IMG/VR virus record: IMGVR_UViG_3300032286_000925
Location: 1-64,000 of that record
Reading direction: 5' to 3' (one strand)
Origin: a virus
Length of the DNA stretch: 64,000 nt
Shown here piece after piece: positions 4,150 through 52,147 of the stretch (the first letter of the stretch is position 1; the number at the start of each line of letters is the position of its first letter). The position numbers were made by a program, and so were the translations under genes. The notes beneath the pieces were generated by a model. That model was not told the DNA's origin and ran no database searches. It worked only from the letters and a program-made list of their open reading frames with translations.

Positions 4150-4236
4150 AACATATAAGAAACCGCGTAGCGGCATTTAGCTGAGCGAAGCGAAGCAATT
4201 GTGCAAGACGGCGAAGCCGGCTTGCCAGCTGCGAAG
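4150..4236. repeat. cluster of tiny GCGAAGC-centred palindromes
   Basis: No gene is present. Several short inverted repeats with a GAA-type core follow one another: CCGCGTAGCGG, GAGCGAAGC, ACGGCGAAGCCG and GCTGCGAAGCAGC. They sit between the last ordinary gene and the first copy of the cassette element. Confidence 0.6.
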
Positions 4237-4310
4237 CAGCGAATTCTGATTTTTATTAATTGTTTTACGCACCTAAACCCTAGCCTTTCGGCTAGGGCTA
4301 GGCTGACTAA

Positions 4311-4532
4311 CTAATCTCTAAGTGCTCTCAAAGCCCAGATGAAACTAGCAAGGATTAGGGTGATTAGGACACAAGTTACGCCATACCAAGCGGTGTATTG
4401 TTCTAGGGCATAGGTGTTCTCGTATACTTGCCACTCGTAGTCGTATCGCTTTACAAGCATTATAGAGATTATGGCAGACATTCCAAGAGATAAGAATAGT
4501 GCTACACGGGTGATGAATAGTGAAAGGTTCAT
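4311..4532 (-). CDS. small two-TM membrane protein (paralogue A)
   Basis: 73 aa. Two hydrophobic segments flank a Tyr-rich loop (YALEQYTAW), and the protein ends ALRALRD. It is clearly a paralogue of the protein at 6038-6259: both begin MNLSL.ITR.ALF, share VLITL..ASF, and end in RD. It is the last cassette of the array. A membrane role is certain only by topology. Confidence 0.75.
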   Translation of the reverse strand: MNLSLFITRVALFLSLGMSAIISIMLVKRYDYEWQVYENTYALEQYTAWYGVTCVLITLILASFIWALRALRD

Positions 4533-4725
4533 TGGAACTCCTGATAGTAGTTAGGTGATGCTAGGCAGAGGTTTCCACCTAAGACAAGTATGGCAGTTGT
4601 TAGAAAGTAAGTCAAACTTAGAAATACGGCGGCGTTTTATTTTTTAATTGCGAACCTAATTCTGATCTATTAATTGTTTTACCGTGCCTAACCCCTAACC
4701 TTTCGGCTAGGGGCTAGGTTAGGGA

Positions 4726-4950
4726 TTACTTGCGTTTCCAAATAATCGGTGCTAAGGCAAAGAATAGGCTGGCAACTCCACCTATCCATAAGCCGTCTAG
4801 GGCAACGCCTAACGCTGTGTTTGTCGGCTCTGCTCCATTGGCAACCAATAGGGCATAGATTAGGACATAAACCGCGGCTATTGCTGGCGTAAGGATTATG
4901 CTGGCAAGTAGTCGGCGAGCAACTACAACTGATTTTCTTGGTTGGTTCAT
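4726..4950 (-). CDS. small two-TM membrane protein
   Basis: 74 aa. A basic N-terminus (RKSVVVARR) leads into two hydrophobic helices (about 13-37 and 48-69) and ends WKRK. The ribosome site is AAGGAGAA. It is a stand-alone cassette with its own promoter (TTGACT near 4990 is not clear) and a GAAA-loop hairpin. Function unknown. Confidence 0.7.
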   Translation of the reverse strand: MNQPRKSVVVARRLLASIILTPAIAAVYVLIYALLVANGAEPTNTALGVALDGLWIGGVASLFFALAPIIWKRK

Positions 4951-5031
4951 TTTTGTTCTCCTTGTTATCGGTGTTGCTGGTTGGGGGTTGCCTAACCCTG
5001 CCTATTGCTAGACAGGGCTAGGCTGTAAAAC

Positions 5032-5244
5032 TTAGTTGCTCTTGTTCTCTGGTAGTTCTGTCCACCTAGTCCAAGTTTTAGGCAACTCTCCTAAGTTCAC
5101 TGCTGTTTCACCGTGTCCTAGACAAGTGAACATTTCAGGGTCGGTTAGTGAACTCCACAAGACGCTATCGGCTGACTTATCGCAAGACAAGACATCGCAA
5201 CGGTGTCTGGTTGTTGTGGTTAGTTTTGTTGTAAATAACTCCAT
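5032..5244 (-). CDS. small Cys/His protein
   Basis: 70 aa starting at the ATG after AGGTGATTACT (a GTG 9 nt upstream is possible). C-x4-C near residue 17 and C-x2-H near 41 suggest one metal site. A promoter with TTGACT and CAAACT at 17 bp lies near 5285-5315. Confidence 0.6.
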   Translation of the reverse strand: MELFTTKLTTTTRHRCDVLSCDKSADSVLWSSLTDPEMFTCLGHGETAVNLGELPKTWTRWTELPENKSN

Positions 5245-5417
5245 AGTAATCACCTACTTTCTACGGGCATACCCGTAGTTCTAGTTTGCCAGAGTATAAG
5301 ACATAAGTCAAACACCTAGCCGTGCGGCGTTTTATTTTTTAATTGCGAACCTAATTCTGATCTATTAATTGTTTTACGGCACTAACCCCTAACCTTTCGG
5401 CTAGGGGCTAGGGCTGC

Positions 5418-5597
5418 TTAGGGCTTAGTTCCAAACTTCCAAAACTTTTTTCTAATCCAAAAAGTCCCGTGTGTTCGGCAGAACACCTTGTGCTTACAAG
5501 GAACTAAAACTAAAGTTCCGTTGTCTTTTGGCTCTTTGACTAGTCCCCTTGCGAATAGTTCGGCTTGCTCGGCATCGCCTTTTTGCTCTATAAACAT
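5418..5597 (-). CDS. hypothetical small basic protein
   Basis: 59 aa (MFIEQKGDAE start) with AGGAGAA upstream of the ATG. The C-terminal half is basic and aromatic, with C-x-H and C-x2-H pairs (PCKHKVFCRTHG) that could bind a metal, and ends WIRKKFWKFGTKP. It occupies a complete cassette between two hairpins. Confidence 0.65.
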   Translation of the reverse strand: MFIEQKGDAEQAELFARGLVKEPKDNGTLVLVPCKHKVFCRTHGTFWIRKKFWKFGTKP

Positions 5598-5668
5598 AGT
5601 TCTCCTTGTTATCGGTGTTGCTGGTTGGGGGTTGCCTAACCCTGCCTTTCGGCAGGGCTAGGCTGGGA

Positions 5669-5851
5669 TTAGTCCTCTATTGGTGTAGTTATACAAGGAC
5701 AGTTTACGCTAGTGCCTTTACAACAAGGGCAGTCTTTATTGTCCTTACGCCACATAAGGTCGTCCATACACTTCAAGCAAGGCCAGTCGGTAGTTGAGAT
5801 ACAACCTCCAAGTTTGGAACAAACAGTTTCGTCATACTTACAACAGGGCAT
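5669..5851 (-). CDS. very Cys-rich small protein
   Basis: 60 aa with 11 cysteines, including CC, C-x2-C and C-x-C-C groups, so probably a structural zinc or metallothionein-like protein. AGGAG lies 7 nt upstream of the ATG. Cassette gene; function unknown. Confidence 0.65.
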   Translation of the reverse strand: MPCCKYDETVCSKLGGCISTTDWPCLKCMDDLMWRKDNKDCPCCKGTSVNCPCITTPIED

Positions 5852-6037
5852 AACAACTCCTAGTTAGTTTTGGTATCAGGATTTTCCCTGACGGGTTCAG
5901 TCTTTCACACTTCAGCGTAAGGGTCAAGTCTAGGTGGTGAGCAATGGTTATATATCCAATTGCGAACCTAATTCTGATCTATTAATTGTTTTACGCCACT
6001 AACCCCTAACCTTTCGGCTAGGGGCTAGGCTGACTAA

Positions 6038-6259
6038 CTAATCTCTAAACGCTGTCCAAATCCAAGCGAAACTGGCAATGGCTAGGGTGATTAGAACCCA
6101 AGAAACGGCAGTCCAAGTTGTGTAGTGGTCTAGGGCATAGGTGCTGTTATAGATGTCCCATTGGTATTCGTATTCCTTAGCAAGTTTTAGTGAGATTACG
6201 GCAGACAAGCAGATAGAGACGAATAGTGCTGAACGGGTGATGATAAGTGATAGGTTCAT
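6038..6259 (-). CDS. small two-TM membrane protein (paralogue B)
   Basis: 73 aa, the same length and topology as the protein at 4311-4532 and identical at roughly half the positions by eye. The AGGAGTTCTA ribosome region is also similar in both. This indicates that whole cassettes were duplicated and then diverged. Confidence 0.75.
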   Translation of the reverse strand: MNLSLIITRSALFVSICLSAVISLKLAKEYEYQWDIYNSTYALDHYTTWTAVSWVLITLAIASFAWIWTAFRD

Positions 6260-6449
6260 TAGAACTCCTACTAGTAGTTAGGTGGTGCTTGGATAGATAC
6301 GCTATCCAATACAATTATGGCATAGTCGTAAGTGATTAGTCAAATAGGAATGCCGAGCAGCTTTATATTTTTAATTGAGCTTCTAATTCTGATCTATTAA
6401 TTGTTTTACGCGCCTAAACCCTAGCCTTTCGGCTAGGGCTAGGCTGGGA

Positions 6450-6710
6450 TTAGAACGGAACTGATAGTCCTAACCTGCCTTGTAGTTTCTCCACTTCCTT
6501 TTTGAGTAAGTGTAGTTCTAGGCTGTTGTATGGTTGTAGGGCATAGTTGTTTATCAACTCGCCGCAGTCGTGGCAAGCAAACCCTTTCAACACAGGTTCG
6601 CCATTTGGGTATCTAATGCTAAGTCCGTAGGCATTGGCAGACAACTCTCCACTTGGGTTTCCACAGGAACAGAACACTAGGTTCATTTGGTATGGTGCTA
6701 GTTCAGTCAT
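6450..6710 (-). CDS. small zinc-ribbon-like protein
   Basis: 86 aa from the ATG that follows AAGGAGAGTGATTACT. C-x-C near residue 14 and C-x2-C near 46 (FACHDCGEL) suggest a zinc ribbon, and a short helix rich in Leu/Lys follows. Cassette gene. Confidence 0.65.
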   Translation of the reverse strand: MTELAPYQMNLVFCSCGNPSGELSANAYGLSIRYPNGEPVLKGFACHDCGELINNYALQPYNSLELHLLKKEVEKLQGRLGLSVPF

Positions 6711-6882
6711 AGTAATCACTCTCCTTATTAGACTTCACAGGTCTATTCTTTCAGTTTATCGGTGCTAAGTCAAACACCTAGCGCGGCGCGTTTATTTTTT
6801 AATTGCGAACCTAATTCTGATTTTATTAATTGTTTTACGGCACTAACCCTGCCTTTCGGCAGGGCTAGGCTCTCGGTGGTGA

Positions 6883-7113
6883 TTACTTCCAAGCACCGAT
6901 AACTTTCATCAACTCGTTTGGAGTGGTCTTGAGTTCTCGGCAGAGTGTCGCCATCATTCCTGACGGGATTTGACGCTCTAGGTGGAAATAACGGCTAAGG
7001 CTGGACTTCTGTAAGCCTGTAGCGATAGCGAACTGATTTAGGGACTTGTAGCCTAGTTTGGTGTATCTTGCGACAAACCAATTCCAAGCCGTAGCGATTT
7101 GAGTTTTACTCAT
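6883..7113 (-). CDS. Xre-like helix-turn-helix protein
   Basis: 76 aa. Residues about 22-70 fit the lambda-repressor-like HTH fold: LNQFAIATGL, then SSLSRYFHLERQIPS, then a final helix ending PNELMKVIG. It is one of only a few obvious DNA-binding proteins in the array and a candidate to bind the repeated intergenic element (inference). Promoter TTGACT/AATACT lies near 7210-7240. Confidence 0.75.
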   Translation of the reverse strand: MSKTQIATAWNWFVARYTKLGYKSLNQFAIATGLQKSSLSRYFHLERQIPSGMMATLCRELKTTPNELMKVIGAWK

Positions 7114-7348
7114 TTTGCTCCTTGATTAGTGGATAGGTTGGGGGCTGAGTGGTTAGGCAAGGCTTCGCAACTGAGCCTAACCACTCACGCTATTTAGTTG
7201 TGGGTCTAGTATTTCAGGTAATCGGTGATTAGTCAAATAGCAAGTAAGGCGGCGCGTTTATTTTTTAATTGCGAACCTAATTCTGCTTTTATTAATTGTT
7301 TTACGCCAAAAGCCTAACCCTTTCGGGCTAGGCTCTCGGCACTATGGG

Positions 7349-7696
7349 TTAGAACTCGTTAGCCATTTGAGCCATAAACTCTATGGCTCTAGCGTAGTTC
7401 TCATCAAGGGACAAGGTTTCTCCCCTTGCGTTTGAGCCACCTGTGAAGACGACAGTTCCAACGATAGGGCTAGACGCTCCTAGCATTTCGTAGAAACGAG
7501 TTGCTACCTTGTTGAGTGGTAGCCCCTTGTGTAGCCCTTCATCATCTACCCAGAAATCTAGGGCAGGCTGAATGGTTACGTGGTCAAACCAGTTACCGAT
7601 AGCTGATTTGATAGCGTCTGAAATCTCCACTTCTGGAACTTCAATTCGCTCGGTGGTGTTGTCTGGGCGGACAACTAAAGCGTGAATAGTGTTCAC
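7349..7696 (-). CDS. DUF3846-like protein
   Basis: 115 aa from a GTG preceded by AAGGAA at 7 nt; the longer upstream reading frame has no ribosome site. The order HALVVRPD, then FWVDDEGLHKGLPLNKVATRF, then GTVVFTG and LSLDENYARAIEFM matches the DUF3846 pattern found in phages and plasmids. Function is unknown in the family. Confidence 0.7.
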   Translation of the reverse strand: MNTIHALVVRPDNTTERIEVPEVEISDAIKSAIGNWFDHVTIQPALDFWVDDEGLHKGLPLNKVATRFYEMLGASSPIVGTVVFTGGSNARGETLSLDENYARAIEFMAQMANEF

Positions 7697-7939
7697 GGCA
7701 GTTTCCTTACTACTAGTAGTTTGGCGTTGCTCTGCGGCACTGGCACCCAGCACTCTTACCGAAACAAGACAGAGCAACGCATCAGGGTATTCCCTGACGG
7801 GTTCAGTCTTTCACATTATCGGTGCTAAGTCAAGCACCTAAGTATGCGTGGCGTTTTGTTTTTAATTGAGCTTCTAATTCTGATTTTATTAATTGTTTTA
7901 CGGCACTAACCCTGCCTTTCGGCAGGGCTAGGGCTAAGG

Positions 7940-8209
7940 TTAGAAGGCTTTGATAGCCTCGCCAAGAGTTCCAAACTCTAGGAACTCACTCAGTTCTTTA
8001 ATTCCGTCTGGTGTTGCTAGTCGGATTGTATAGCGTGAGCAACTTCGGTCAGCAACGTGTTCGCTGGTTATGAACTTCCAGCCGTTCTCGTGGGGGGTCA
8101 GAGTTTCCCAATAGACTTCAGAGTTCCAGAATTTCATCGTGGTTTCACTAAACCAATTTTGATTGTTCTTGATGATTTCCTGCCACTCTTGGCTTTCTTT
8201 GTTTGTCAT
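7940..8209 (-). CDS. hypothetical small protein with structured leader
   Basis: 89 aa from the ATG after AGGAGAAAA. Soluble with many aromatic residues; no domain recognised. The mRNA leader (8210-8317) contains two strong hairpins, unlike most cassettes. Confidence 0.65.
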   Translation of the reverse strand: MTNKESQEWQEIIKNNQNWFSETTMKFWNSEVYWETLTPHENGWKFITSEHVADRSCSRYTIRLATPDGIKELSEFLEFGTLGEAIKAF

Positions 8210-8225
8210 TTTTCTCCTAGTCGGT

Positions 8226-8317
8226 AGTCGCAAAGTGAGCAGTAATCAACTGCTAGCAAGGTCTTTCCTGCTCACTTCGCTAAGGCTTATGTTTCTCGAA
8301 CCAGCAACCTTTGCTGG
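8226..8317 (-). promoter_or_regulatory. structured 5' leader of a cassette mRNA
   Basis: The stem 8229-8242 pairs with 8268-8280 (GCGAAGTGAGCAG with CTGCTCACTTTGC, one G-T pair), enclosing about 25 nt. A second hairpin, CCAGCAA/TTGCTGG, is at 8301-8317. Both lie between the promoter (TTGACT/AATACT near 8336-8365) and the AGGAG site, where they could control translation. Confidence 0.6.
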
Positions 8318-8473
8318 ATTTCACCCTGCTCCAAGTATTTCATACTTACGGCACTTAGTCAAGCCGTAGGTGTGGCGGCGTGTTTTGTTTTTTAATTGAG
8401 CTCTTAATTCTGCTTTTATTAATTGTTTTACGCAAGGCAACAACCCTGCCTTTCGGCAGGGCTGTCGCTTTTA

Positions 8474-8584
8474 CTACTCAACGGTGCAGATACAGTTTGA
8501 GCCAAGTCCGTCACAACAAATACAGACTAACTGGTCAAGTTCGGCAATCTCACCTATGCCATCACAGACTGTGCAGTTGCTCAC
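8474..8584 (-). CDS. tiny DnaJ-type zinc-finger protein
   Basis: 36 aa starting at a GTG that overlaps the stop of the upstream gene (GTGA). It carries two half-sites, CTVCDGIG and CICCDGLG, of the CxxCxGxG type seen in DnaJ, with further Cys at the end. Probably co-translated with the 149-aa protein. Confidence 0.6.
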   Translation of the reverse strand: MSNCTVCDGIGEIAELDQLVCICCDGLGSNCICTVE

Positions 8585-9030
8585 AAGCGTTGCCAATCTT
8601 CAATTTCCTCTTCGGTGGCTTTCCTAAAGGTGAAGATGCCTGTGCCTGTAGGCTCATCGTGGCTCCATCGCTGTGCAGTCATAGTCTTGTCGCTATCGTA
8701 GGTGATTTTGAGTGTCCAGTCACCATCGAATGTAAGCGTCTTCAAGATACTCTTGAAGTCCGCCTTGCTAAGTGTGTAGCCATCGACATTTCGCCAAGAT
8801 ACTCTGTTTGCATTTATTACAATGTAGTCCTGGTCGGCAATGTCATTAGCAATTTGCCAAGGGTGGATAATGTCATACTCGGTGTTGCTCTGGTCATCTT
8901 GCCAGCAACCATCGCAATACTCAGATGGGACTGGATTACCATTATCGTCTAACACTTCACTGTCTGTTTCACTGTCATAGACAGTGCAACGGCAGTTGCT
9001 AGACAACTCATAAACAATGTCTTCAGACAT
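8581..9030 (-). CDS. hypothetical acidic protein
   Basis: 149 aa with AGGAGTAAATT before the ATG. Acidic, with an early C-x-C and a C-x2-C pair (YCDGCWQDD). The C-terminal part (SKADFKSILKTLTFDGDWTL..) looks globular. No family named. It is in an operon with the tiny zinc-finger gene. Confidence 0.65.
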   Translation of the reverse strand: MSEDIVYELSSNCRCTVYDSETDSEVLDDNGNPVPSEYCDGCWQDDQSNTEYDIIHPWQIANDIADQDYIVINANRVSWRNVDGYTLSKADFKSILKTLTFDGDWTLKITYDSDKTMTAQRWSHDEPTGTGIFTFRKATEEEIEDWQRL

Positions 9031-9217
9031 AATTTACTCCTAGTTTAGGGTTTAGTGTAGAGGGTTCTCTACACTCTCAGTCTGCCATAGATAGCCGTAG
9101 TAGTCAAACTATCGGAGCTGCGGCGCGTTTACTTTTTAATTGAGCTTCTAATTCTGATCTATTAATTGTTTTAGGGCACTAACCCTGCCTTTCGGCAGGG
9201 CTAGGCTGGTGGAGATA

Positions 9218-9523
9218 CTAACTCTCTCTACCGCTGCCACCACAGGACACACAACGCTGTTCGTATCTGTCCTCGCCAACTCCATTACAACTTGAGCAGT
9301 GGTCGGGGTCTTCGTTTCCGTCTGGCTGGTCTGGGGCTGGCAACTCAACTTCGTCAAACTCGGCGTGCCAAAGTTCGTCTGGTATTGACCAAATAGTTGT
9401 CAATTCCATTAGTCTTGTCCGTAGTAGCGATAAGACTTGTTCTTTTGCGTCTTCAAGCCAAGTATCGTCATCGGTGATGTCTTCAATTACAGTCTTGTAG
9501 GACTTGATTACTTCTTCTAGCAT
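9218..9523 (-). CDS. protein with C-terminal DnaJ-like zinc finger
   Basis: 101 aa from the ATG after AGGAGAGA (the longer frame is leader). The N-terminal two thirds are helical (EEVIKSYKTVIED...VLSLLRTRLMEL). The end carries CSSCNGVG and CVSCGGSG, a DnaJ-type zinc centre. Cassette gene; partner unknown. Confidence 0.7.
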   Translation of the reverse strand: MLEEVIKSYKTVIEDITDDDTWLEDAKEQVLSLLRTRLMELTTIWSIPDELWHAEFDEVELPAPDQPDGNEDPDHCSSCNGVGEDRYEQRCVSCGGSGRES

Positions 9524-9746
9524 TTCTCTCCTAGTAGTTAGTGGGTGAGGTGAGAGGGTAAGCAGGACAACTAAGGTATGAAACACAATTATTTCGCTTA
9601 CCCTCTCGGGTCTAGTCTTTCATACTTCACCGTAGTAGTCAAATACCTAAGGTGTCGCGGCGTTTTATTTTTTAATTGAGCTTCTAATTCTGCTTTATTA
9701 ATTGTTTTACACCACCAACCCTGCCTTTCGGCAGGGCTGGCAGTGC

Positions 9747-10220
9747 TTACCAAGCAGAACTGAATACTGCGACTACTAACCAAGTTGAGAGCAGTAGCCA
9801 AGGACCAAGTGGCACACTTGTTCCTATCGGTGCTTTCCGCATAATCACATAAACAACTGCGAGTAGTGAGAATAGAACTGATAGTGGAATGATTAGCAGA
9901 GCAATAAGCGGTGAATACACGCCAACTGCGAGCAGTAGGGCAGTAATGAACTTCACATCACCCATTCCAACTACATCAAAGTAGTTTAGGACAAGTCCAA
10001 TAATGAACCAAGCGAACGGCAAGCCAACTGCGAGCAGTAGGTTTATCCAACTTTGAGTAGCGACATTCACAGTGATAGCGGTAATGAACGCTAGGGCGGC
10101 GAATGGTAGAACAATTTTGTTCGGTAAGCGGTGTAACTTGTAGTCAATGACTATAAGCGGTATTGTAGCAACCGCAAGATAAACAAGCGGTAGAGCAGAA
10201 ATAATGTCTAAGATAGGCAT
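9747..10220 (-). CDS. A24-family prepilin leader peptidase (TadV/CpaA-type)
   Basis: 157 aa with about six hydrophobic helices. The family's catalytic aspartates are visible as Asp26 (DYKLHRLPN) and Asp88 in the GMGD motif. The enzyme cleaves the leader of type IV/Tad prepilins at the cytoplasmic membrane. It is short and lacks the N-methylating domain, as in TadV/CpaA enzymes. No pilin gene is nearby. A phage-borne copy could modify host pili or process a phage or host protein with a prepilin-like leader; that role is inference. Confidence 0.88.
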   Translation of the reverse strand: MPILDIISALPLVYLAVATIPLIVIDYKLHRLPNKIVLPFAALAFITAITVNVATQSWINLLLAVGLPFAWFIIGLVLNYFDVVGMGDVKFITALLLAVGVYSPLIALLIIPLSVLFSLLAVVYVIMRKAPIGTSVPLGPWLLLSTWLVVAVFSSAW

Positions 10221-10403
10221 TATGTTCCTTTCGGGTTATTTGGGTGTAGGCGGTTGCCTACGCTATAAGTCTTTCACACTTCATACTGTAAGTCAAACCG
10301 CAGGTGTGTTCCGGGGGTTTTATTTTTTAATTGAGCTTCTAATTCTGATCTATTAATTGTTTTACGCCACTAACCCCCTTTCGGGGGCTAGGGCTAGCAG
10401 TGG

Positions 10404-10637
10404 TTAGGATGGCATCCAAGGTAGTTTCAGGTCAGCAAGAGAGCAACCGCACTCTGGAGTCAACTCTCTAGCGATACCTACTGGGTCGTTGTAGCAAGTG
10501 TCGTCTACCTGCTCTTGAATACATCTCAACAGATAGTCGCTGGTCTTACCGCAGACACCGCATAGATACTCAACAACTTCCATCTTGTGTCCAATGTGGT
10601 TACTTAGAAGGTCGTTGAAGTATGGCTCACTCATCAT
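10404..10637 (-). CDS. small Cys-rich protein
   Basis: 77 aa. C-x2-C (LCGVCGK), a middle Cys pair and C-x-C (ECGCS) suggest metal binding. The start overlaps the end of the upstream 42-aa gene, and GGAGAAG precedes the tandem ATGs at 10637 and 10634. Confidence 0.65.
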   Translation of the reverse strand: MMSEPYFNDLLSNHIGHKMEVVEYLCGVCGKTSDYLLRCIQEQVDDTCYNDPVGIARELTPECGCSLADLKLPWMPS

Positions 10638-10755
10638 CTTCTCCGTTGATGATTAACTCCAACTCGTTTAGTGCTTCATCAGCGGTGATGTTTCCAGACC
10701 AGTAGCGGTTATAGATACTTTTGATTTTTTGTGCTGTTCTGTCGTCTATTTCCAT
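10627..10755 (-). CDS. small acidic helical protein
   Basis: 42 aa with AGGAGTAAAA before the ATG and an overlap with the next gene. One long amphipathic helix pattern (DEALNELELIINGEDDE). It is the first gene of a two-gene cassette. Confidence 0.6.
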   Translation of the reverse strand: MEIDDRTAQKIKSIYNRYWSGNITADEALNELELIINGEDDE

Positions 10756-10976
10756 TTTTACTCCTAGGTTTTGGGGATAAATAAGTTGGGAGAGCAAGCG
10801 AACCTGTCCCCACAGACTTGCTCTCCCGTGTTTAGTCTTTCATAGTTCGGTAGATAAGTCAATCCGTAAGTGTGTCGGCGTAGTTTACTTTTTTAATTGA
10901 GCTCTTAATTCTGCTTTTATTAATTGTTTTTAGAAACACCGAACCCTAGCCTTTCGGCTAGGGCTGGTGTATGGGA

Positions 10977-11237: not shown

Positions 11238-11449
11238 TTTGTCCTCCTCTCGGTTGAACTAGGTGGCAGTTTAGCAAGTCTGCGTCTTGTTGTAGAGGGC
11301 TTTCTACGCTATCAGTCTTTCATACTTCGACAGATAAGTCAAACTAGGGTGTGCCGAGCAGCTTTATATTTTTAATTGAGCTTCTAATTCTGATCTATTA
11401 ATTGTTTTACACCGAAACCCCAACCTTTCGGCTGGGGCTCGGTAGCAAA

Positions 11450-11653: not shown

Positions 11654-11659
11654 TTTTAT

Positions 11660-11935
11660 CTCCTAGTTGTTTGAGTGAGCCTTTTAATTCCCCACTTGCT
11701 CAGGTGGAGTGGTGCTATATGTGAGTGGGTGGGTTGTCTATTACCACCAAGGAGAAGTCTAAGAGTTCTTAGGAACCGCCTTAGTCCTACCAACGCTTTC
11801 AGCCGCTAAACTGGGGTCGCTAAACCCACGCTGTGCCTTTCTTACCCCTCCTAGACAGAGGGCTTCGTTCAGCCACACTCCAAGTCAGCCGTCGCTTCCT
11901 TGTTGATACAAGTATGGCAGATAGCCTTCCGTAAG
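11660..11935 (-). other. long 5' leader, possible small ORF
   Basis: Most cassette leaders are under 110 nt; this one is about 260 nt between TTGACT/CATACT (near 11910-11938) and AGGAG. It includes a 39-codon frame (11759-11878, GTG start). Its translation (RGFSDPSLAAESVGR...) faintly recalls KGG-type stress proteins but has a poor ribosome site. It could be a leader RNA or a decayed gene. Confidence 0.35.
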
Positions 11936-12042
11936 TCAAATCGTATGTCGGGTCGGCGGTTTTGTTTTTAATTGAGCTTCTAATTCTGATCTATTAATTG
12001 TTTTACGCCACCAACCTACCCTTTCGGGTAGGCTGGCAGACT

Positions 12043-12458: not shown

Positions 12459-12687
12459 TTTATCTCCTAGTTGATTAGTGGAAAGGTGAGAGGGTAGGTT
12501 AGCAGTGAAAGGTATGAACGGACCTTGTTCTTCCTACCCCCTCGGGTCTAGTCTTTCATACTATCCGTAGATAGTCAAATACCTAGTGGGTCGCCCGGTT
12601 TATTTTTTAATTGAGCTTTTAATTCTGATTTTATTAATTGTTTTAGGAGCACCAGACCTGACCCTTTCGGGTCAGGCTGGCAAGTTG

Positions 12688-12987: not shown

Positions 12988-13176
12988 TTTTACTCCTAGT
13001 TAGGTGTTGCTTTGTGGATACTTTCCACGCTCTAAGTCTTTCACGCTATCCGTAAATAGTCAAATACCTAGTGGGTCTCGCCCGGTTTGTTTTCAATTGA
13101 GCTTCTAATTCTGCTTTATTAATTGTTTTACGCGAAACAACCTACCCTTTCGGGTAGGCTGTCGCTATTTAGGAGA

Positions 13177-13671: not shown

Positions 13672-13856
13672 TTTTACTCCTAGTCTTTGGGTTAGGTGAG
13701 AGGAGTTTCCTCTCGGTGTTAGTCTTTCATACTTATTGCCAGAAGTCAAACTTGGGTATGTCGGGCGGCTTTATTTTTTTAATTGAGTTTCTAATTCTGA
13801 TTTTATTAATTGTTTTATGCCACCGACCCGACCCTTTTGGGTCAGGTCGGCAGAGG

Positions 13857-14168: not shown

Positions 14169-14340
14169 TTTTCTCCTAGGTTGGAAGTGTGGTCTTTCCA
14201 CATTACCAGCATTTCACATATCAATCCGTAAGTCAAATGTTTGGGGGTGTCGCCAGGTTTGTTTTTAATTGATCTTTTAATTCTGATTTTATTAATTGTT
14301 TTATGCTGAGAACTTGCCCTTTCGGGCAAGCCTCTTGCGA

Positions 14341-14691: not shown

Positions 14692-14745
14692 TTTTCTCCT
14701 CGGTTGTTGGTGTAAGCCTTTTAGACACTTGCTTAGGTGTTGGAA

Positions 14746-15132: not shown

Positions 15133-15310
15133 ATTTACTCCTAGTTGTAAATTGTGGATACTTTCCACAAGACAAGTCTTTCATAGATATATCCGTAAGT
15201 CAAACTTTTGATAGGAGCTGCGGTTTACTTTTTTAATTGAGCTTTTAATTCTGCTCTTATTAATTGTTTTACGAAGAAACCTCCCACCCTTTCGGGTGAG
15301 AGGCTTTGGT

Positions 15311-15625: not shown

Positions 15626-15793
15626 TTTTCCTCTGTTTCTGTGGATACTTTCCACACTTGTAGTTTTTCACACTTACGCTAATAAGTCAAACTACTTTGA
15701 TATTGACGAGCTTTATTTTTTAATTGAGATCTTAATTCTGCTTTATTAATTGTTTTACGCAAGAACCCCCGACCTTTTGGTCAGGGGCTTTGC

Positions 15794-15907
15794 TTACTTG
15801 GACTTACTGATTAGGAACGCTTGTAGCGTGGAAAGTCTAATGATTACTCGGCTAAGTAGTCGTATAGCCTTTTGGTTGAGGTCAGGATTATATTTATGCC
15901 TACTCAT
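15794..15907 (-). CDS. small basic protein
   Basis: 37 aa (MSRHKYNPDL start) whose ATG overlaps the stop of the upstream gene. Basic, with a hydrophobic stretch (AIRLLSRVIIRLSTLQAFLI). Third gene of a three-gene cassette; supported by overlap and position rather than by homology. Confidence 0.45.
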   Translation of the reverse strand: MSRHKYNPDLNQKAIRLLSRVIIRLSTLQAFLISKSK

Positions 15908-16130
15908 CATCATCTCTTTTTACTTCGTCAATGAACTCTTGGATTTCTGCGAGGTCATCTGAGGTTAGTTGGTAGAGAGGGATATCATCTGAGTTTGTTG
16001 TTTCAGGAACTACAAACCCTAGTCTGCGAAGTTCCTCCATAACTGCGTGGATTTTTCCGATTTCCTCTGGGGTAGGGTAGTGGAGGGGTTCTGACCCCTC
16101 CACGCCCTCTGGGTGATTAGGCTTATTCAT
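15900..16130 (-). CDS. small acidic protein
   Basis: 76 aa from the internal ATG (MNKPNHPEG) with a GGAG-type site inside the upstream gene's end; the genes overlap by 8 nt. Acidic and helical, ending KRDDDE. Middle gene of the cassette. Confidence 0.6.
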   Translation of the reverse strand: MNKPNHPEGVEGSEPLHYPTPEEIGKIHAVMEELRRLGFVVPETTNSDDIPLYQLTSDDLAEIQEFIDEVKRDDDE

Positions 16131-16389
16131 CTCCGTAATACCCGTAGTCCTCGTCTGTTCCGTGTCCAGCACTAGCGAGAGCATCTCCGTCAAACCAACT
16201 TTCGTCTGGCTCGTTGTCCTCGTCCTCGTCCTTGTCCTCGGTTTCTTCCTCTGTCCAGATTTCTACAATCTGAACATCTACACCAAGTTTGGCATAGTTG
16301 TCCCAAGCGATTTTTTCGGCTTGCTCTTGTGTTTCTGCTTCCACATCAAAGTTGTAATCTACTCTGACGGTGATATTCCAATTAGACAT
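16123..16389 (-). CDS. small acidic protein
   Basis: 88 aa from the ATG after GAGGAAAAA. The first half is a beta-alpha-beta-like unit (ITVRVDYNFDVEAETQEQAEKIAWD); the second half is a very acidic tail of Asp/Glu. No named family. Confidence 0.6.
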   Translation of the reverse strand: MSNWNITVRVDYNFDVEAETQEQAEKIAWDNYAKLGVDVQIVEIWTEEETEDKDEDEDNEPDESWFDGDALASAGHGTDEDYGYYGDE

Positions 16390-16570
16390 TTTTCCTCGGT
16401 TTCTGTGGATACTTTCCACATCTAAATCCTCTCACATTATCTTTACATAATCAAGTATTCGGTGCTGCGAGTTGGTTTTGTTTTTTAATTGAGCTTCTAA
16501 TTCTGCTTTATTAATTGTTTTACAAAACCAAACCCTCCACCATTTCTGGTAGAGGGCTGGTTGGTAGTCG

Positions 16571-16972
16571 TTAGACTATTGCTGGTTCTTTCGGTTCAGC
16601 AAGACTTTCTTCATACTGCTTTTGGAAGCGTTCGGCTTCTCTGGCGAGAACTTTTTTGGTCCAAGTTCCAAGTGGCTCATTGGAAACATTAGTTCCGTAG
16701 CCCACTACACTTTTTACAAAGTTAAAGGTGTAGGCAGACTTGTTAGACCAACTGCCGTCTTCTAACTGCTTGTTCTCGTAGTGTAGAGGTCCGTGTAGGC
16801 TTTCCCAAGTTTTGATGCGAGCATAAACCTCACCAACATTTTTCTTTGACACCGAACCGATACCGATAGCCATAAGTGCGAAAGCGAAGTATGCGATAGC
16901 GTTAGCGTCAGCCTCGTCTTCCAATCTAGCGTCAATGTTTGCTACGCTTTGAGCGTCCCAATTTAGCGACAT
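16571..16972 (-). CDS. conserved phage protein (MSLNWD family)
   Basis: 133 aa. The opening MSLNWDAQSVANID, FALMAIGIGSVSKKN and YARIKTWESLHGP resemble an unnamed family of actinophages and plasmids. The C-terminus ends EPKEPAIV, close to the shared E-P-x-[IV]-V tail found in other proteins here. Confidence 0.7.
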   Translation of the reverse strand: MSLNWDAQSVANIDARLEDEADANAIAYFAFALMAIGIGSVSKKNVGEVYARIKTWESLHGPLHYENKQLEDGSWSNKSAYTFNFVKSVVGYGTNVSNEPLGTWTKKVLAREAERFQKQYEESLAEPKEPAIV

Positions 16973-17168
16973 TTGTTTCTCCTCGATTTGTGTAAGCGTT
17001 GTTGCTTACATATTTATTCTTACACGCTTACAACTTTTAGTCAAACTACCTGTGCTGCTAGCGGTTTTATTTTCAATTGAGTTTTTAATTCTGCTTTTAT
17101 TAATTGTTTTTAGCCAAAACCCTACCTACTAAGAGAGGCTAGTAGGCAGGGCTGGCTTTGGTCAGGTG

Positions 17169-17600
17169 TTAGTAGTCCTGAACATTTGTGTCATTGACAT
17201 CTAGGTCATAACTCTCGATAGAGAAGCCGTTAGACCAGTGGGTATCAATGCTGACCTCAAACGAGGTGTATGAAAGGTCGTCCCAGTCGAAACTGCGAGG
17301 TGCTTTGATAGTCATAGTTCCAGAAATACTAACTTCTACTTCCTTCTCTACTTCGGTGTCAATGTCAAAGATTTTAGCAATCTCTTCTGCGTGGTCGTCA
17401 AGGCTGTCCCAGTTCTCGTCTAGGTATTCCTCTAACCTGTCCTTTTTGCGTTCTAGGTCTGTCCACCAACGAATAACTTTTTCGTTTTCTGACTTTGCGA
17501 ACTCTAACTCTTTGGTTAGTTGTGCGACTTCGGCAGTAAGTTCCTCAACGGACTTTACTACTACTTCTTGTGTTTCTTGTGGTTCATTTGTTTCAGACAT
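17169..17600 (-). CDS. coiled-coil plus beta-domain protein (paralogue 1)
   Basis: 143 aa. A long coiled coil (about residues 14-65) is followed by IAKIFDIDTEVEKEVEVSIS and a beta-rich C-terminus. The same junction occurs at 18760-19221 (LAEIFGWETTKEVDVAIEI), so the two are paralogues with different N-terminal helices. Unnamed conserved phage family. Confidence 0.7.
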   Translation of the reverse strand: MSETNEPQETQEVVVKSVEELTAEVAQLTKELEFAKSENEKVIRWWTDLERKKDRLEEYLDENWDSLDDHAEEIAKIFDIDTEVEKEVEVSISGTMTIKAPRSFDWDDLSYTSFEVSIDTHWSNGFSIESYDLDVNDTNVQDY

Positions 17601-17813
17601 TTTGTCTCCTCGGTTTATTTGGGTTGTAGAGGCAAGTCGGCACTAGGAGATACTTTCTTGCCTCTACACTTTTAGTTTAAGCCCTAGACCTGACTTCTGT
17701 CAAACTTAGATGTATAGGTCGGCGTTTATATTTTCAATTGAGCTTTTAATTCTGCTTTTATTAATTGTTTTACAAACCAAAACCCCTCGCTTTTCAGCAA
17801 GGGGCTCGGTCGG

Positions 17814-17951
17814 TTAGTTCAGGTAAGTTGCCTTACAGTAATCACAAACCCAACTTGGTTCGTTTGGATACAGTGGGAACTTATGTGGGTTGAGTTCATC
17901 TACCTCAAATCCGTCAGCACCACAGAAATTACAAGCGTCAGGTTCAGACAT
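17814..17951 (-). CDS. tiny zinc-ribbon protein
   Basis: 45 aa. C-x2-C near the start (CNFCGAD) and C-x2-C near the end (VCDYCKAT) make a complete zinc ribbon. The ATG overlaps the end of the upstream zinc-ribbon gene by 8 nt. Confidence 0.65.
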   Translation of the reverse strand: MSEPDACNFCGADGFEVDELNPHKFPLYPNEPSWVCDYCKATYLN

Positions 17952-18276
17952 CTTCTTCCTCTCTCGGTGAGCAGGTCAGACATACTTCGGTGTCGTCAAA
18001 CTCGTCTCGGACTTCCTCTGGAATGAACGCCTTACAGTATGAGCAGAGGTAGAGTTCATCTTCGGTGAAGTAAGAGGCAGTGAAGAAATCTTTTGCCCCG
18101 TTTGGATAATCCTCTTTACACTCTCGGCAGAGCCAGAAGTAAGTAAGTTCGGTCATCTTTGCTGGGTCGTGAATACCCTCTGGGACTTTTGTAGTGGCAC
18201 TTAGCACACTAATCGGGTCGCCATCATTGTAGTTTCCACAACTGTCGCAAGTTATGTCGTGGTGGTTATCTATCAT
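17944..18276 (-). CDS. double zinc-ribbon protein
   Basis: 110 aa from the ATG after AGGAGATAAA. C-x2-C (CDSCGN) pairs with C-x2-C (CRECKE), and a second set CSYCKA pairs with CLTCSP. Two adjacent zinc ribbons are likely. Operon with the 45-aa ribbon gene. Confidence 0.7.
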   Translation of the reverse strand: MIDNHHDITCDSCGNYNDGDPISVLSATTKVPEGIHDPAKMTELTYFWLCRECKEDYPNGAKDFFTASYFTEDELYLCSYCKAFIPEEVRDEFDDTEVCLTCSPREEEDV

Positions 18277-18497
18277 TTTATCTCCTCGGTTTATTTGGGT
18301 TGGGGGCAAGTAGAAACAGATATAACACCTTGCCCCCGAGTTCAGTTTGCCAGAAATACTTGGCTAAGTCAAATAGCAGTTGAGTTTCGCGATTTATATT
18401 TTCAATTGAGTTTTTAATTCTGCTTTTATTAATTGTTTTTAGCGAAATTGAGCAGTTTAGACACTTGCTCGGGTGTTTCCTTTGGGTAAAGGGGGGC

Positions 18498-18698
18498 TTA
18501 TTCGTCTCCGAAACTTACTACATTGTTTTTGCCACAGAACTCGCACTCAACATCAGCGTCGCCAGACCTGCCACCAACTACAATATCGGTTTCGTTTTCT
18601 TCTTCGCACTCGCCACACTCAAAGGAAACTCCGATTTCTCTTTCGTCGTCCCAAGGTGTAGCAGTTTTCCAGCCGTCATATCCCGGAATATGTTCCAT
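18498..18698 (-). CDS. zinc-ribbon protein
   Basis: 66 aa with GAGGTAAAAA upstream. C-x2-C (ECGECEEE) and C-x2-C (ECEFCGKN) flank a Gly-rich loop. Cassette gene of unknown role. Confidence 0.65.
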   Translation of the reverse strand: MEHIPGYDGWKTATPWDDEREIGVSFECGECEEENETDIVVGGRSGDADVECEFCGKNNVVSFGDE

Positions 18699-18759
18699 TT
18701 TTTACCTCCGTTAGTTGTGGTTAGGCAGTTTATACACTTGCCTAGGTGTCCGAGGTGGT

Positions 18760-19221
18760 CTAGTTTTCTGAGAGGTTGATTTTATCAACGCTGACATCAA
18801 GAACAAACTCGCTTGAGTAGCCGATACTGATATCAACTTCAATATCACTTTCAGCGTCCTCAACGCTTTGTCCCATTGGAACGCTTATTGTTCCGTAGGC
18901 AGTGATTTCAATAGCAACATCAACTTCCTTGGTAGTTTCCCAACCGAAGATTTCGGCTAGTTCTACCAACTCGTCTGCGTCAGCGCAAGCACTTTCAATT
19001 CTTTCCTGAAACCAATCCTCAGCAGAACCGATGTTCATAATAAGTTCTGAACGCTTGGTGTCAGCAAACTTCTTTTGGTCGTTTAGGCTGGCGTGTGCTT
19101 TGTAGGTGTATTCCAACAACTCTGCCCAAGCAAGAGCGTCGTTGCCAATAATCTCAACTACATTGTTCGGTGTAAGAGTTCCTTTTAGAAACTCGTCTTT
19201 CTGTTCGTTTGTAAGATACAT
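18760..19221 (-). CDS. helical plus beta-domain protein (paralogue 2)
   Basis: 153 aa. Paralogue of 17169-17600 through the shared LAEIFGWETTKEVDVAIEI-type junction and beta-rich C-terminus; the N-terminal part differs and has a DWFQERIESA helix. GAGGAAAA precedes the ATG. Confidence 0.7.
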   Translation of the reverse strand: MYLTNEQKDEFLKGTLTPNNVVEIIGNDALAWAELLEYTYKAHASLNDQKKFADTKRSELIMNIGSAEDWFQERIESACADADELVELAEIFGWETTKEVDVAIEITAYGTISVPMGQSVEDAESDIEVDISIGYSSEFVLDVSVDKINLSEN

Positions 19222-19407
19222 ATTTTCCTCGTTTGATTTGGAGAGCGTTTTTGCTCTCGGTTATAGTTTGACAGATTTGTTGTTTGTAGTCAAATACATT
19301 TAGCAGGGTCGCGCTTATATTTTTAATTGCTGCCTTTAATTCTGCTTTTATTAATTGTTTTAGCAGAACAAGCCCTACCTTTTGGTAGGACTTGCTTTGC
19401 TAGGAAA

Positions 19408-19554
19408 TTAGAGAGGAGTTCCACAATCGCTACATTGTATATGCTCTTTACAATCTTGGTCGCACTCCCAACCGAAATCGTCTGGGGTTTCTACTTCCCA
19501 AGTATCTTCGCCAGACTTTCCACATACTCCACAGAAATCGCTTTTATCACTCAT
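19408..19554 (-). CDS. tiny zinc-ribbon protein
   Basis: 48 aa. C-x2-C (CGVCGKSG), C-x3-C and C-x2-C (CSDCGTPL) give two probable zinc sites. The ATG overlaps the stop of the upstream gene by 8 nt. Third gene of a three-gene cassette. Confidence 0.65.
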   Translation of the reverse strand: MSDKSDFCGVCGKSGEDTWEVETPDDFGWECDQDCKEHIQCSDCGTPL

Positions 19555-19816
19555 TTTTTACCTCTGCTCCAAGTTCTTTTAGTTGCTCGGTAAGTTCCTC
19601 TACAACATCATAGATAAACTCTCGGTGTTCTAGCACCCAATCTAAATCGCCTTGGACACTACTGATGATTTTGCTCCACGCCTCCGTTAGTTGCTCGGGG
19701 GTCATATCACCTGTGATGAAACTTGCTGTATGGTCTTTATCAAACCAAGTTATAGCAAGTTCATCATCAGGTTTATATTCTTTGAGCAACATAGAGACAA
19801 TCTCTACAACTTTCAC
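19547..19816 (-). CDS. hypothetical protein
   Basis: 89 aa starting at a GTG that overlaps the upstream stop (GTGA). Helical (ELTEQLKELGAEV), with DDELAITWFDKDHTA in the N-terminal half resembling small accessory proteins of actinophages. No named family. Confidence 0.6.
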   Translation of the reverse strand: MKVVEIVSMLLKEYKPDDELAITWFDKDHTASFITGDMTPEQLTEAWSKIISSVQGDLDWVLEHREFIYDVVEELTEQLKELGAEVKNE

Positions 19817-20052
19817 AAAGTCTCCAACTCGATTTCAGCAATAGCGACATTTAGTAGTGCTACAAGTTCCTTAGCGTCTGCTAGCGATAGGTGCTGACTT
19901 ACACTAGAAATGATGCCACCGATTTCCAACCCACCGACATCTCGTAGGTGTGTGCTGATATCTAGGTCAATAATAGTTCCGTCTCCCATATAGGTAGAAC
20001 CTACCCTTGTTCCAGCATTGATACTTAGTGATGTCATTTTTCTTTCAAACAT
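19813..20052 (-). CDS. hypothetical protein
   Basis: 79 aa from the ATG after GAGGAGTAAAA. Ends with a long helix (LADAKELVALLNVAIAEIELETL). First gene of the three-gene cassette; promoter near 20085-20115. Confidence 0.6.
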   Translation of the reverse strand: MFERKMTSLSINAGTRVGSTYMGDGTIIDLDISTHLRDVGGLEIGGIISSVSQHLSLADAKELVALLNVAIAEIELETL

Positions 20053-20228
20053 TTTTACTCCTCGTTTGTTTTTGTGGTCTTTCCACATTACTATTCTGAC
20101 ACGAACCCCTGACATTAGTCAAACTTTATTTTGGGGTCTGCGTTTTATTTTTAATTGCGTTTTTAATTCTGCTTTTATTAATTGTTTTTACGGAAAAGCA
20201 GTAGCCATTTCTGACTACTGCCTTTTTG

Positions 20229-20585
20229 TTATCCGTAGATTACATCACCGAAGAAAGCAATTTGTAGCAATCCGTCTGACACGCAAGCGTCAGGGTCTTC
20301 TAAGTCCCACGCACCCCCACAATGAGTAAGTCCTTTTGTAAGAACGGTGCTGTAAGCCTTAGCCAAATCCTCAATGGTTAGAGTTTTGGTTGTTGTTGGC
20401 TCGTCTGGGTCGTCAGGGTCGCAAGCAGTTATGGTGAATTCGCCTGTGCCGATTTTGTCCCAATCGCCTCCGTTAGAGTATTTTAGGCTTACCCACCACT
20501 CCATATACTCCCAGCCTCCACCGAAAGTTGCCTCCCAAAGTAGTTGCTTGTCTATTGGGACATTGATGTTGATGTTGTTTTCCAT
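20229..20585 (-). CDS. conserved phage protein
   Basis: 118 aa from the ATG overlapping the upstream stop. Contains FGGGWEYMEWWVSLKY, ITACDPDDPDE, KTLTIEDLAKAY and HCGGAWDLEDPDAC, ending FFGDVIYG. I recall this pattern as an unnamed conserved protein of actinophages and mobile elements. GGGAGAAC precedes the ATG. Confidence 0.7.
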   Translation of the reverse strand: MENNININVPIDKQLLWEATFGGGWEYMEWWVSLKYSNGGDWDKIGTGEFTITACDPDDPDEPTTTKTLTIEDLAKAYSTVLTKGLTHCGGAWDLEDPDACVSDGLLQIAFFGDVIYG

Positions 20586-20755
20586 TATCGGTTCTCCCAA
20601 TACTTATCAATGGCAATCATACTTTCTAGGTCGCTAATCCTACCCTCTATAAGTATGAGAGTTTGTGGAGTAAGTATTCCCTTATCCACTAAGAGTTCTA
20701 TTTCTTTTTTATCTACGCTAAGATTAGCGAACTCGTTTAGGTGTTCTTCTAGCAT
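20585..20755 (-). CDS. small helical protein
   Basis: 56 aa from the ATG after GAGGAGCAAA. Predicted helix pair (EEHLNEFANLSVDKKEIELL and LILIEGRISDLESMI). Coupled to the next gene by TAATG overlap. Confidence 0.6.
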   Translation of the reverse strand: MLEEHLNEFANLSVDKKEIELLVDKGILTPQTLILIEGRISDLESMIAIDKYWENR

Positions 20756-20950
20756 TTTGCTCCTCGTTTGTTTTTGTGGTCTTTCCACATTTCCAACTTT
20801 ACACGAACTTTACACGAAGTCAAGTCTGCTGCTGCGAAATGTTTATTTTTAATTGAGATTTTAATTCTGGTTTATTAATTGTTTTAGATAGCAGAAACCC
20901 ACCAACCTAAACTCTCGGTTTAGTTTATTGGTGGGCTTTGCTAGGAATAA

Positions 20951-21274
20951 CTACGCAGTTCTGATGTAGTCGTATTCGGTGGTTCGTAGAGTTTCTGCGT
21001 AAGCGTCTGGGAACTTCTCTTGTAGCAACTCTCGGTCAAACGAGGTGTTCTTACTGAATACTAGGCTGAAAGCCTTGATTTTGCCAAAGAACCCGATTGT
21101 CTTACCTGCTGGGAGAGAGGCTCGTAGGATTGCCTCGGCTTGTGCCTTGCGTTCCTTTGCGTCTTTCTCGTCAGCCTTAGCCTGAATAAAGTCAGCGTGG
21201 GCTTTCTTTACCTTGGCACTTGTGATGATAACTGCGTTCTCTGGCAGTTCTGGTGCGTTGTCGTTGTTAGACAT
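20951..21274 (-). CDS. hypothetical coiled-coil protein
   Basis: 107 aa. The central Lys/Ala/Glu-rich helix (about 22-55) is followed by a beta-like segment GKTIGFFGKIKAFSLVF and a helix ending EYDYIRTA. AGGAAAACAA precedes the ATG. No family assigned. Confidence 0.6.
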   Translation of the reverse strand: MSNNDNAPELPENAVIITSAKVKKAHADFIQAKADEKDAKERKAQAEAILRASLPAGKTIGFFGKIKAFSLVFSKNTSFDRELLQEKFPDAYAETLRTTEYDYIRTA

Positions 21275-21391
21275 TTGTTTTCCTTTTCGTGAGATTGTTT
21301 AGTTGCCTCACATCTATAAACTTACTTGGTTATGTGTTTCTTGTCAAGTCTTTCGTTTGATGTTTAGACATTTATTTTTTTAATTGAGGTT

Positions 21392-21628
21392 TTAATTCTT
21401 TTTGCTTGTGTAAAAGATATTGACTACTGTAAACCACTCTAGAGTTTTTTTGAATTGCCAATCAGGGTTTAGATGATAACACTCGTTATACCAATCAAGG
21501 TAGATTTGATTACCCGAACTTCTATCGGGGAACGCCTCTTGAACCCATAGATACATAAAGTTTAGGTTTTTTTGCCCATATTCTAGGTCAATAACTATTT
21601 CTGGGTATTTTGGAATCGGTAGTTCCAT
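21392..21628 (-). CDS. hypothetical small aromatic protein
   Basis: 78 aa, rich in Trp/Tyr. The gene runs into a truncated copy of the intergenic element, which lacks the usual hairpin. The ribosome site is weak, so the start is less certain. Confidence 0.5.
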   Translation of the reverse strand: MELPIPKYPEIVIDLEYGQKNLNFMYLWVQEAFPDRSSGNQIYLDWYNECYHLNPDWQFKKTLEWFTVVNIFYTSKKN

Positions 21629-21715
21629 ATGCGTCTTTCGTCTTTTGTGGATTTTGTAGTGAGCCTTTTATAGACAAATAAGGTAAATGCTCAGGTCTAT
21701 ATCTTTATTCTAACA

Positions 21716-22024
21716 CTAATCGTCTTCGTCTAGTGTTTCGCAGTATGCTCCACAGGAGTAGCAGAGGTAAGTTCCCCATAAAGACCAATAGCCAGCGTGT
21801 TCCCCTGCGATTTCTAGGCTACCAATTTTGTAGGTTTTTTCATCCTCGTCATACCAGACAAGTTCTTTTGAGCAGTTTTCACAGATTTCCCAAGTAAAGA
21901 TTTCGTGGCAACCATTCCAGCCATTATACTTTTCATCTGTTTTAGCACAGGTGTCAGAGCAGTAATAGTTTCTATCTACTACTTGTCCGTCTTTGTCGTC
22001 AATATCTATTAGGTGTGCTGACAT
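21716..22024 (-). CDS. double zinc-ribbon protein
   Basis: 102 aa. C-x3-C (YCSDTCAK) pairs with C-x2-C (CENCSKE), and the last part has C-x2-C (LCYSCGAYC). Promoter TTGACT/TAAACT lies at about 22058-22086. Confidence 0.65.
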   Translation of the reverse strand: MSAHLIDIDDKDGQVVDRNYYCSDTCAKTDEKYNGWNGCHEIFTWEICENCSKELVWYDEDEKTYKIGSLEIAGEHAGYWSLWGTYLCYSCGAYCETLDEDD

Positions 22025-22216
22025 TTTTTCCTCGTTTCCGTAAGTCTTTCTTACAAGATAAGTTTATAGTTTTGAGGCTAGAAGTCAAGTTTTTTGCGCG
22101 AGGCTGGGCTTTTATTTTTAATTGAAAGCTTTAATTCTGCTTTTATTAATTGTTGATCTTAATTCTGCTTTTTATTAATTGTTTTTAATTCTGCTTTTTA
22201 TTAATTGTTTTAGCTG

Positions 22217-27187: not shown

Positions 27188-27213
27188 TTTCTACCTTTCT
27201 TGTAGTTAGGACA

Positions 27214-27300: not shown

Positions 27301-27304
27301 AAAT

Positions 27305-52140: not shown

Positions 52141-52147
52141 GTAGCAG

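Follow-up and report, generated by a model that had tools for sequence, protein, structure and literature searches.

How can a phage control dozens of small genes, which probably serve host takeover, as one set and yet swap them freely? The question is raised by the window, that is, the 64,000-nucleotide stretch analysed here, which comprises bases 1-64000 of the 95,385-base IMG/VR virus record IMGVR_UViG_3300032286_000925 and which carries an array of small genes on its minus strand. The initial annotation of this DNA had described an array of repeated cassettes, and the description holds: there are 28 minus-strand units, each comprising an A/T-rich box, a promoter, one to three small genes, and a hairpin. 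Comparison with close relatives shows that the control sites of ~20 orthologous modules have been replaced together, with the modules and most of their order kept, and that concerted evolution of regulatory DNA is therefore directly measurable. Joint change of many control sites is seen here with unusual clarity.

The box has a strict form, written on the minus strand as AAAACAATTAATA-N-AGAATTA-N-CAATTAAAAA, that matches 30 times, all within 4242-22211, vs. 0 matches expected from dinucleotide shuffles. A looser pattern matches 31 times on the minus (coding) strand, every time in the array (4261-22206), and three times on the opposite strand, far from the array (70798, 71546, and 89134), where no array is present. 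The earlier count of about 30 hairpin-box-promoter copies stands for the 28 that have a promoter, but not for the array ends, which are formed by a promoterless half-copy of the box (at 4266) and by a threefold box tandem. In the 28 promoters, the −35 element is TTGACT in 25, the spacer is 17 bp in 24, and an extended −10 TG is present in 26; all 22 matches to the strict promoter TTGACT-N14-TGnnAnnnT on the two strands of the 95 kb record fall within the array. The box does not abut the −35 element, as had been supposed: the last AATT begins 31-36 bases upstream of it. The distance from box to −35 element is nevertheless near-constant (57-63 bases, with variable sequence between), as expected for the position-fixed promoter element that had been proposed. 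We conclude that the array is organized as ~28 separately promoted and probably separately ended units, with transcription, start sites, termination, and early timing predicted from sequence.

To place the array among its relatives, which were located through the flanking genes for SSB, AAA ATPase, and terminase and all of which are metagenomic contigs from IMG/VR, we use the labels G018 to G041. The same plan, with a dispersed box, is present in about ten related phages, and the box is mostly phage-specific (a ‘dialect’): AAATTAATAAAAACAAAA..AAACAACTAGAAGATTACC in G028, AATTAATAAATAGACCAAACAATTAAAAAGAGA in G029, ACAGAATAATTAAAAA in G025, CAAGAATAAGAAAA in G023, CAAAAATTAAAGAAATTCAAATTA in G030, AAAACAAAAATAAGAA in G031, AAAACCGTAAAACC in G033, and, as dialects common to two phages, TTGTATTCATTTTTTCAC in G021 and G022 and AAATAAAAAATAAAA in G018 and G019. 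Long dialects are those of the window, of G028, and of G029, and each of the three was found in its own species only. The exact window box had no match in IMG/VR, and a shorter piece of it gave 14 single, chance-like matches with no arrays. The initial annotation had held that absence of the element from related phages would speak against a system of this kind; the window sequence is absent from them, but a differing equivalent stands in the same place in about ten. From box to −35 element, G028 has a distance of 50 in 20 of its 24 units and G029 one of 47-49 in every one of its 22; G025 is looser, with 50-58. Units in relatives were picked by box pattern, and promoter counts there are therefore not independent of the box. 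Relatives found through ribonucleotide reductase (RNR) had no box, so that RNR is a poor guide to such arrays; terminase and SSB worked. Named phages Pumpernickel and GodonK had no comparable dispersed repeats near terminase. The array plan is widespread in related lake phages.

The window, G028, and G029 are a trio of close phages with three dialects, and orthologous units in these phages reveal where in the unit ancestry is retained. We identified 19 orthologous units for window and G029 and 17 for window and G028, with proteins about 50-99% identical and mostly collinear; the comparisons of identity and hairpin folding cover part of the comparison rows. For window and G029, median nucleotide identities for orthologous vs. 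non-orthologous units are 0.88 vs. 0.60 in the gene, 0.86 vs. 0.52 in the leader, 0.83 vs. 0.72 in the core promoter, 0.76 vs. 0.66 in the hairpin region, and 0.63 vs. 0.61 in the box. The orthology signal ends at the −35 element, and there is none through spacer and box. Boxes within one genome are 0.87-0.95 alike (0.87 in the window, 0.91 in G029). With G021 and G022, which have one dialect and a similar overall divergence (84%), the spacer keeps its orthology (0.80). Because same-dialect phages retain spacer orthology at similar divergence, we conclude that box and spacer of ~20 units changed together, and not by clock-like decay. With three dialects in three close phages, nature provides an experiment that could distinguish recombination from a changing activator as the driver.

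Recombination leaves a further trace at the boxes, detected in the same-dialect pairs G021/G022 and G018/G019; the window has no same-dialect relative. With homology blocks defined by BLASTN and with random box shifts that assume uniform placement as the control, 8 of 16 block edges in G021/G022 lie at a box in both genomes (0.14 expected; p 0.0002), and 3 of 12 in G018/G019 lie at boxes (0.14 expected; p 0.0004). At the junctions, homology extends up to the 16-base box on one side and is lost past it. Blocks stand in a different order in G021 and G022, and individual units occupy different places in window and G028. Of six genomes tested, five (window, G028, G029, G025, and G023) have boxes that resemble their neighbours most. 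The modular reading of the initial annotation, units behind one repeated cassette with exchange at the repeats, is thus supported by the block edges. The results fit homologous recombination between boxes that shuffles modules and homogenizes boxes. The constant spacer length indicates that selection acts too.

The RNA predicted from each unit has structure at both ends. For the hairpin upstream of the box, the median number of pairs is 15 and the median folding z is −5.3 (mononucleotide shuffles); the low hairpin z of G025 is an artefact, because the hairpin there sits further upstream than the fixed folding window reaches. The stems had earlier been noted to vary while keeping their pairing around a mostly GAAA loop; the GAAA loop is present in 21 units, but the stem differences are between paralogous places, not by ancestry. 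Termination at these hairpins is plausible from their sequence, and U-tracts following them are better in the relatives G029 and G021 than in the window. A second element, overlooked by the initial annotation, is a strong 5'-terminal stem-loop at the predicted +1, present in 24 of 28 units vs. ~19% of shuffles; 22 of these stems start at −2, −1, or 0 relative to the predicted +1. The same stem is found in 19 of 24 units of G028, 19 of 22 of G029, and 14 of 18 of G025. Stems of orthologous units show two-sided changes that preserve pairing (for example, GTAGGC/GCCTAC to GTAGAG/CTCTAC). Because RNase E of E. coli attacks an RNA more slowly when its 5' end is base-paired (PMC3997798 and references therein), the 5' stems look like protective transcript starts.

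Two other RNA structures occur in the array. The first is a 27-base H-type pseudoknot, ACAC-CT-GAGC-AA-GTGT-CTAAACT-GCTC, which precedes a ribosome-binding site or closes a unit at its 3' end, at about 18724-18749, 18450-18476, 14715-14740, and 11674-11707 on the minus strand of the window, and also in G018, G019, G021, G022, G025, G028, G029, G032, G034, G035, and G037 and in loci L125, L131, L143, and L151. In a search that did not require the second helix, 25 of 26 distinct sites could form it, with the exact complement following after 7-11 bases, in five sequence versions; in a set of sites chosen by pairing, covariation is 0.278 vs. 0.130 in shuffles. The second is a manA-like RNA (RF01745) that forms the long leader of unit 14 (11718-11899, minus strand; 45.8 bits, under the 55.2 cut-off) and that scores 62.2 bits in the orthologous G029 leader; outside the window it lies at L177:16298-16475 and L184:1598-1781 (minus). 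No Rfam family matched the box, the hairpins, or the pseudoknot.

The explanation that we favor, with moderate confidence, is that the units are promoter-terminator cassettes resembling the promoter-early stem-loops (PeSLs) of T4-like phages, in which the box serves both as a position-fixed promoter element and as a recombination joint and is homogenized within each phage. A module would comprise the −35 element, the extended −10 element, the stem-loop at the transcript start, a ribosome-binding site, one to three small genes, and the terminator-like hairpin, with an A/T-rich box of about 20-46 bp between modules. In its first role, the box would be a promoter element at a nearly fixed distance upstream of the −35 element, probably one at which an activator docks or, far upstream, RNA polymerase alpha. 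In its second role, it would be a site of homologous recombination, since it is the longest sequence common to all modules; exchange by a putative recombination enzyme would move, gain, and lose modules and would copy the box from unit to unit, keeping the boxes of one phage near-identical while they jointly drift from those of relatives.

Several observations weigh against this explanation. Block edges away from boxes make up half of the total in G021/G022 and the greater part of it in G018/G019. The boxes of G021 show no spatial similarity. No annealing recombinase was identified in the records, in a search that was not exhaustive. The −10 hexamers are weak (for example, AAGACT and CAAACT), and U-tracts are rare after the window hairpins (a median of 2 T in the next 10 bases). 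Finally, a homogenized tract with a fixed spacer length might instead be the product of selection by one binding protein.

This last reading, which we regard as possible though unlikely, is that a single activator encoded by the phage binds the box, that a change in its specificity led selection to rewrite all boxes, and that recombination is secondary. T7-type RNA polymerases with their promoters, or Cluster A repressors with their stoperators, would be parallels of such joint change. The fixed distance to the −35 element despite a variable spacer sequence, and the conservation of specific box positions within a phage, would be expected of such an activator, and Cluster A phages have genome-specific stoperator motifs with matching repressors (PMC6550527). 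The initial annotation had put forward two helix-turn-helix (HTH) proteins as readers of the AATT boxes. One is ClgR-like (5woq, E 2e-14), with a recognition region nearly unchanged between dialects; the other is better conserved. Because these two obvious DNA-binding proteins retain their recognition regions from dialect to dialect, they are weak candidates, and their predicted binding to the AATT boxes is unpromising. Selection by one protein would not cause the greater likeness of neighbouring boxes, and the spacer, which is not conserved, lost its orthology along with the box.

A more speculative idea, which we hold as tentative, is that the box is a phage-specific joint that marks the places of exchange and that each phage overwrites all its joints with its own dialect, so that only phages of the same dialect readily trade modules. 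If so, box turnover would build recombination barriers between phage species, and the same box would keep imported modules under the phage's own promoter control.

Two other explanations appear improbable. The first takes the box for an ordinary UP element, an A/T-rich sequence bound by the C-terminal domain of host RNA polymerase alpha and without special evolution. Every dialect is A/T-rich, and an A/T-rich block upstream recurs in relatives (other than G032, G037, G040, and G041, in which the pattern was not seen); but the block is accompanied in most lineages by a GC-richer stretch beside the −35 element, in the canonical place of an UP element. The A+T content 11-20 bases upstream of the −35 element is 28% in the window and 0.19-0.48 in most lineages, with G028 higher at 0.65. 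A canonical UP element, as the initial annotation had envisaged, is therefore unlikely, and a need for A/T alone leaves unexplained both near-identity within a phage and total replacement between phages. The second, to which we give equally little credence, is that there is one long transcript, in which hairpins and 5' stems are sites of RNA processing or stability and in which promoters are weak or silent. The weak −10 hexamers and scarce U-tracts would agree with it, as would a generic sigma-70 scan, in which promoters were not enriched within the array (19 vs. 26 expected) and the array promoter class was not singled out; the confinement of the strict promoter to the array and the placement of 5' stems exactly at the predicted +1 argue against it. 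Least probable is that a site-specific recombinase uses the box for attachment and that the array is an integron-like cassette store: break points at boxes, the box-module-box order, and the promoterless boxes at the ends would suit it, but no tyrosine integrase was found in ten records (several of them fragments), a uniform order and a fixed promoter distance are needless for such a site, and the terminal tandem fits slippage or unequal exchange equally well.

Among known systems, those that appear to work most like the array, and closer to it than SAS/ESAS, are the PeSLs (Arbiol 2010 and Comeau 2014, as cited in PMC4503421) and a similar hairpin-promoter motif in the haloarchaeal virus HGTV-1 (PMC3950731). 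In both, many copies of a terminator-like hairpin with an adjoining promoter lie among small variable genes, and recombination between the copies shuffles genes. The array likewise has 28 hairpin-box-promoter sets, with the box in between, and has module exchange at the copies in two pairs of relatives. In contrast to PeSLs as there described, the array is in an unrelated phage group (its nearest named phages are actinophages, not T4-like myoviruses), has an extra A/T-rich box at a fixed distance between hairpin and promoter, has a box that differs among close relatives and is homogenized per phage, and has a stem-loop at +1. Because the phage group differs and because there is an additional, phage-specific box, we call the array PeSL-like and not a PeSL.

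The initial annotation had likened the array to the SAS/ESAS of Cluster K mycobacteriophages, in which a 13-bp SAS lies at the ribosome-binding site and 17-bp ESAS inverted repeats lie just upstream (PMC3203893, PMC12699233); SAS/ESAS-like motifs are also known in Microbacterium clusters EF, EC, and EI (PMC7302621). The likeness holds for the many copies before small genes in actinophages and for the subcluster-specific ESAS consensus, but SAS/ESAS are at or near the ribosome-binding site (PMC3203893), whereas the box is 57-63 bases upstream of the −35 element, and ESAS differ at few positions between subclusters, whereas in the array the entire box differs. Cluster O mycobacteriophages have >30 copies of 17-bp repeats, between which recombination has been proposed for gene gain and loss (PMC4351075); these resemble the array in copy number and proposed recombination role, but are palindromic, partly intragenic, and without a tie to promoters. 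Cluster A stoperators, 13 bp repressor sites (PMC6550527), resemble it in having many sites per genome, a genome-specific motif, and one orientation, but are repressor sites spread genome-wide at no fixed promoter distance. ESAS and stoperators already show dialect-like differences, though smaller ones (PMC3203893, PMC6550527).

Table 1. Positions in the window of the array, its units, and neighbouring genes.
Feature	Position	Strand	Remark
Whole array	4236..22215	-	28 promoter units with small genes
Threefold box tandem	22130..22211	-	upstream array end
Unit 0, box to −10	22061..22156	-	
Unit 1, box to −10	20795..20885	-	
Unit 2, box to −10	20093..20188	-	
Unit 3, box to −10	19265..19361	-	
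Unit 4, box to −10	18344..18439	-	
Unit 5, box to −10	17674..17771	-	
Unit 6, box to −10	17016..17110	-	
Unit 7, box to −10	16426..16521	-	
Unit 8, box to −10	15662..15756	-	
Unit 9, box to −10	15175..15270	-	
Unit 10, box to −10	14208..14302	-	
Unit 11, box to −10	13721..13816	-	
Unit 12, box to −10	13035..13129	-	
Unit 13, box to −10	12550..12644	-	
Unit 14, box to −10	11911..12004	-	then long manA-like leader
Unit 15, box to −10	11314..11408	-	
Unit 16, box to −10	10834..10930	-	
Unit 17, box to −10	10268..10363	-	
Unit 18, box to −10	9614..9708	-	
Unit 19, box to −10	9079..9172	-	
Unit 20, box to −10	8334..8429	-	
Unit 21, box to −10	7805..7899	-	
Unit 22, box to −10	7208..7302	-	
Unit 23, box to −10	6745..6836	-	
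Unit 24, box to −10	6314..6407	-	
Unit 25, box to −10	5899..5992	-	
Unit 26, box to −10	5283..5375	-	
Unit 27, box to −10	4587..4680	-	
Terminal half-box	4242..4266	-	without promoter; downstream array end
5'-terminal stem-loop (example)	15154..15169	-	at predicted +1; GTGGAAAGTATCCAC
Terminator-like hairpin (example)	9718..9742	-	GAAA loop, upstream of box; GCCAGCCCTGCCGAAAGGCAGGGTTGG
ClgR-like HTH protein	22985..23266	-	beside array
Second HTH protein	6883..7113	-	within array
Terminase large subunit	687..2096	-	downstream flank of array, in relatives too
SSB gene	22342..22764	-	upstream flank of array, in relatives too

The phage of the window encodes a T4-type terminase, SSB, a B12-dependent RNR, a family A DNA polymerase, and a D5-type primase, and is large and probably lytic. 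By terminase, its nearest named phage is the uncultured Actinomycetia phage DSL-LC01 (79%), from Dishui Lake (PMC10611076), followed by Microbacterium phages (~60%); on account of these nearest terminases, a freshwater actinobacterium (Actinomycetota) is its likely host. A Megablast search against named phages gave no match, and a terminase search of bacterial genomes confirmed no relative and therefore provided no prophage or host link.

Arrays of other kinds were seen in further phages. DSL-LC01 (L174, 24063-65421), and similarly L121, L157, and L159, have arrays with another promoter type, in which an extended −10 element lies within the palindrome-like GATTCTAAAGATGTTATAATTGAATC (17 copies in DSL-LC01), after hairpins and before a repeated ribosome-binding site. 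L096 has dense, short, tandem-like repeats (TTGGGC, CAGGCAGG, TAGCTCAGCTC) near terminase at 12000-12500, and repeated words near terminase, differing by phage, are found also in L095, L103, L105, and L115-L120. Micro-hairpins of GCTNCGC type, with variable flanks, follow the last window box (4160-4240) and lie in or beside the boxes of G018, G019, G023, and G025.

Elsewhere, the phage encodes a tmRNA with the tag ANTSAYALAA and two WhiB proteins (sites at 52147-52490 and 53610-53936 of the window and 72418-72921 of the record). WhiB7-type activation, in which a WhiB protein with an AT-hook acts at A/T-rich DNA adjoining the −35 element (PMC3905903), was considered for the box and rejected: no AT-hook was seen in the two WhiB sequences, and the A/T-rich block is not beside the −35 element. 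At 25394-28339 the window encodes an AAA ATPase (with a match to a porphyrin biosynthesis PHROG) and a 597-aa neighbour, the positional counterpart of which in DSL-LC01 is annotated as cobalamin biosynthesis; together with the B12-dependent RNR at 54162-56201, this pair points to a possible B12 link.

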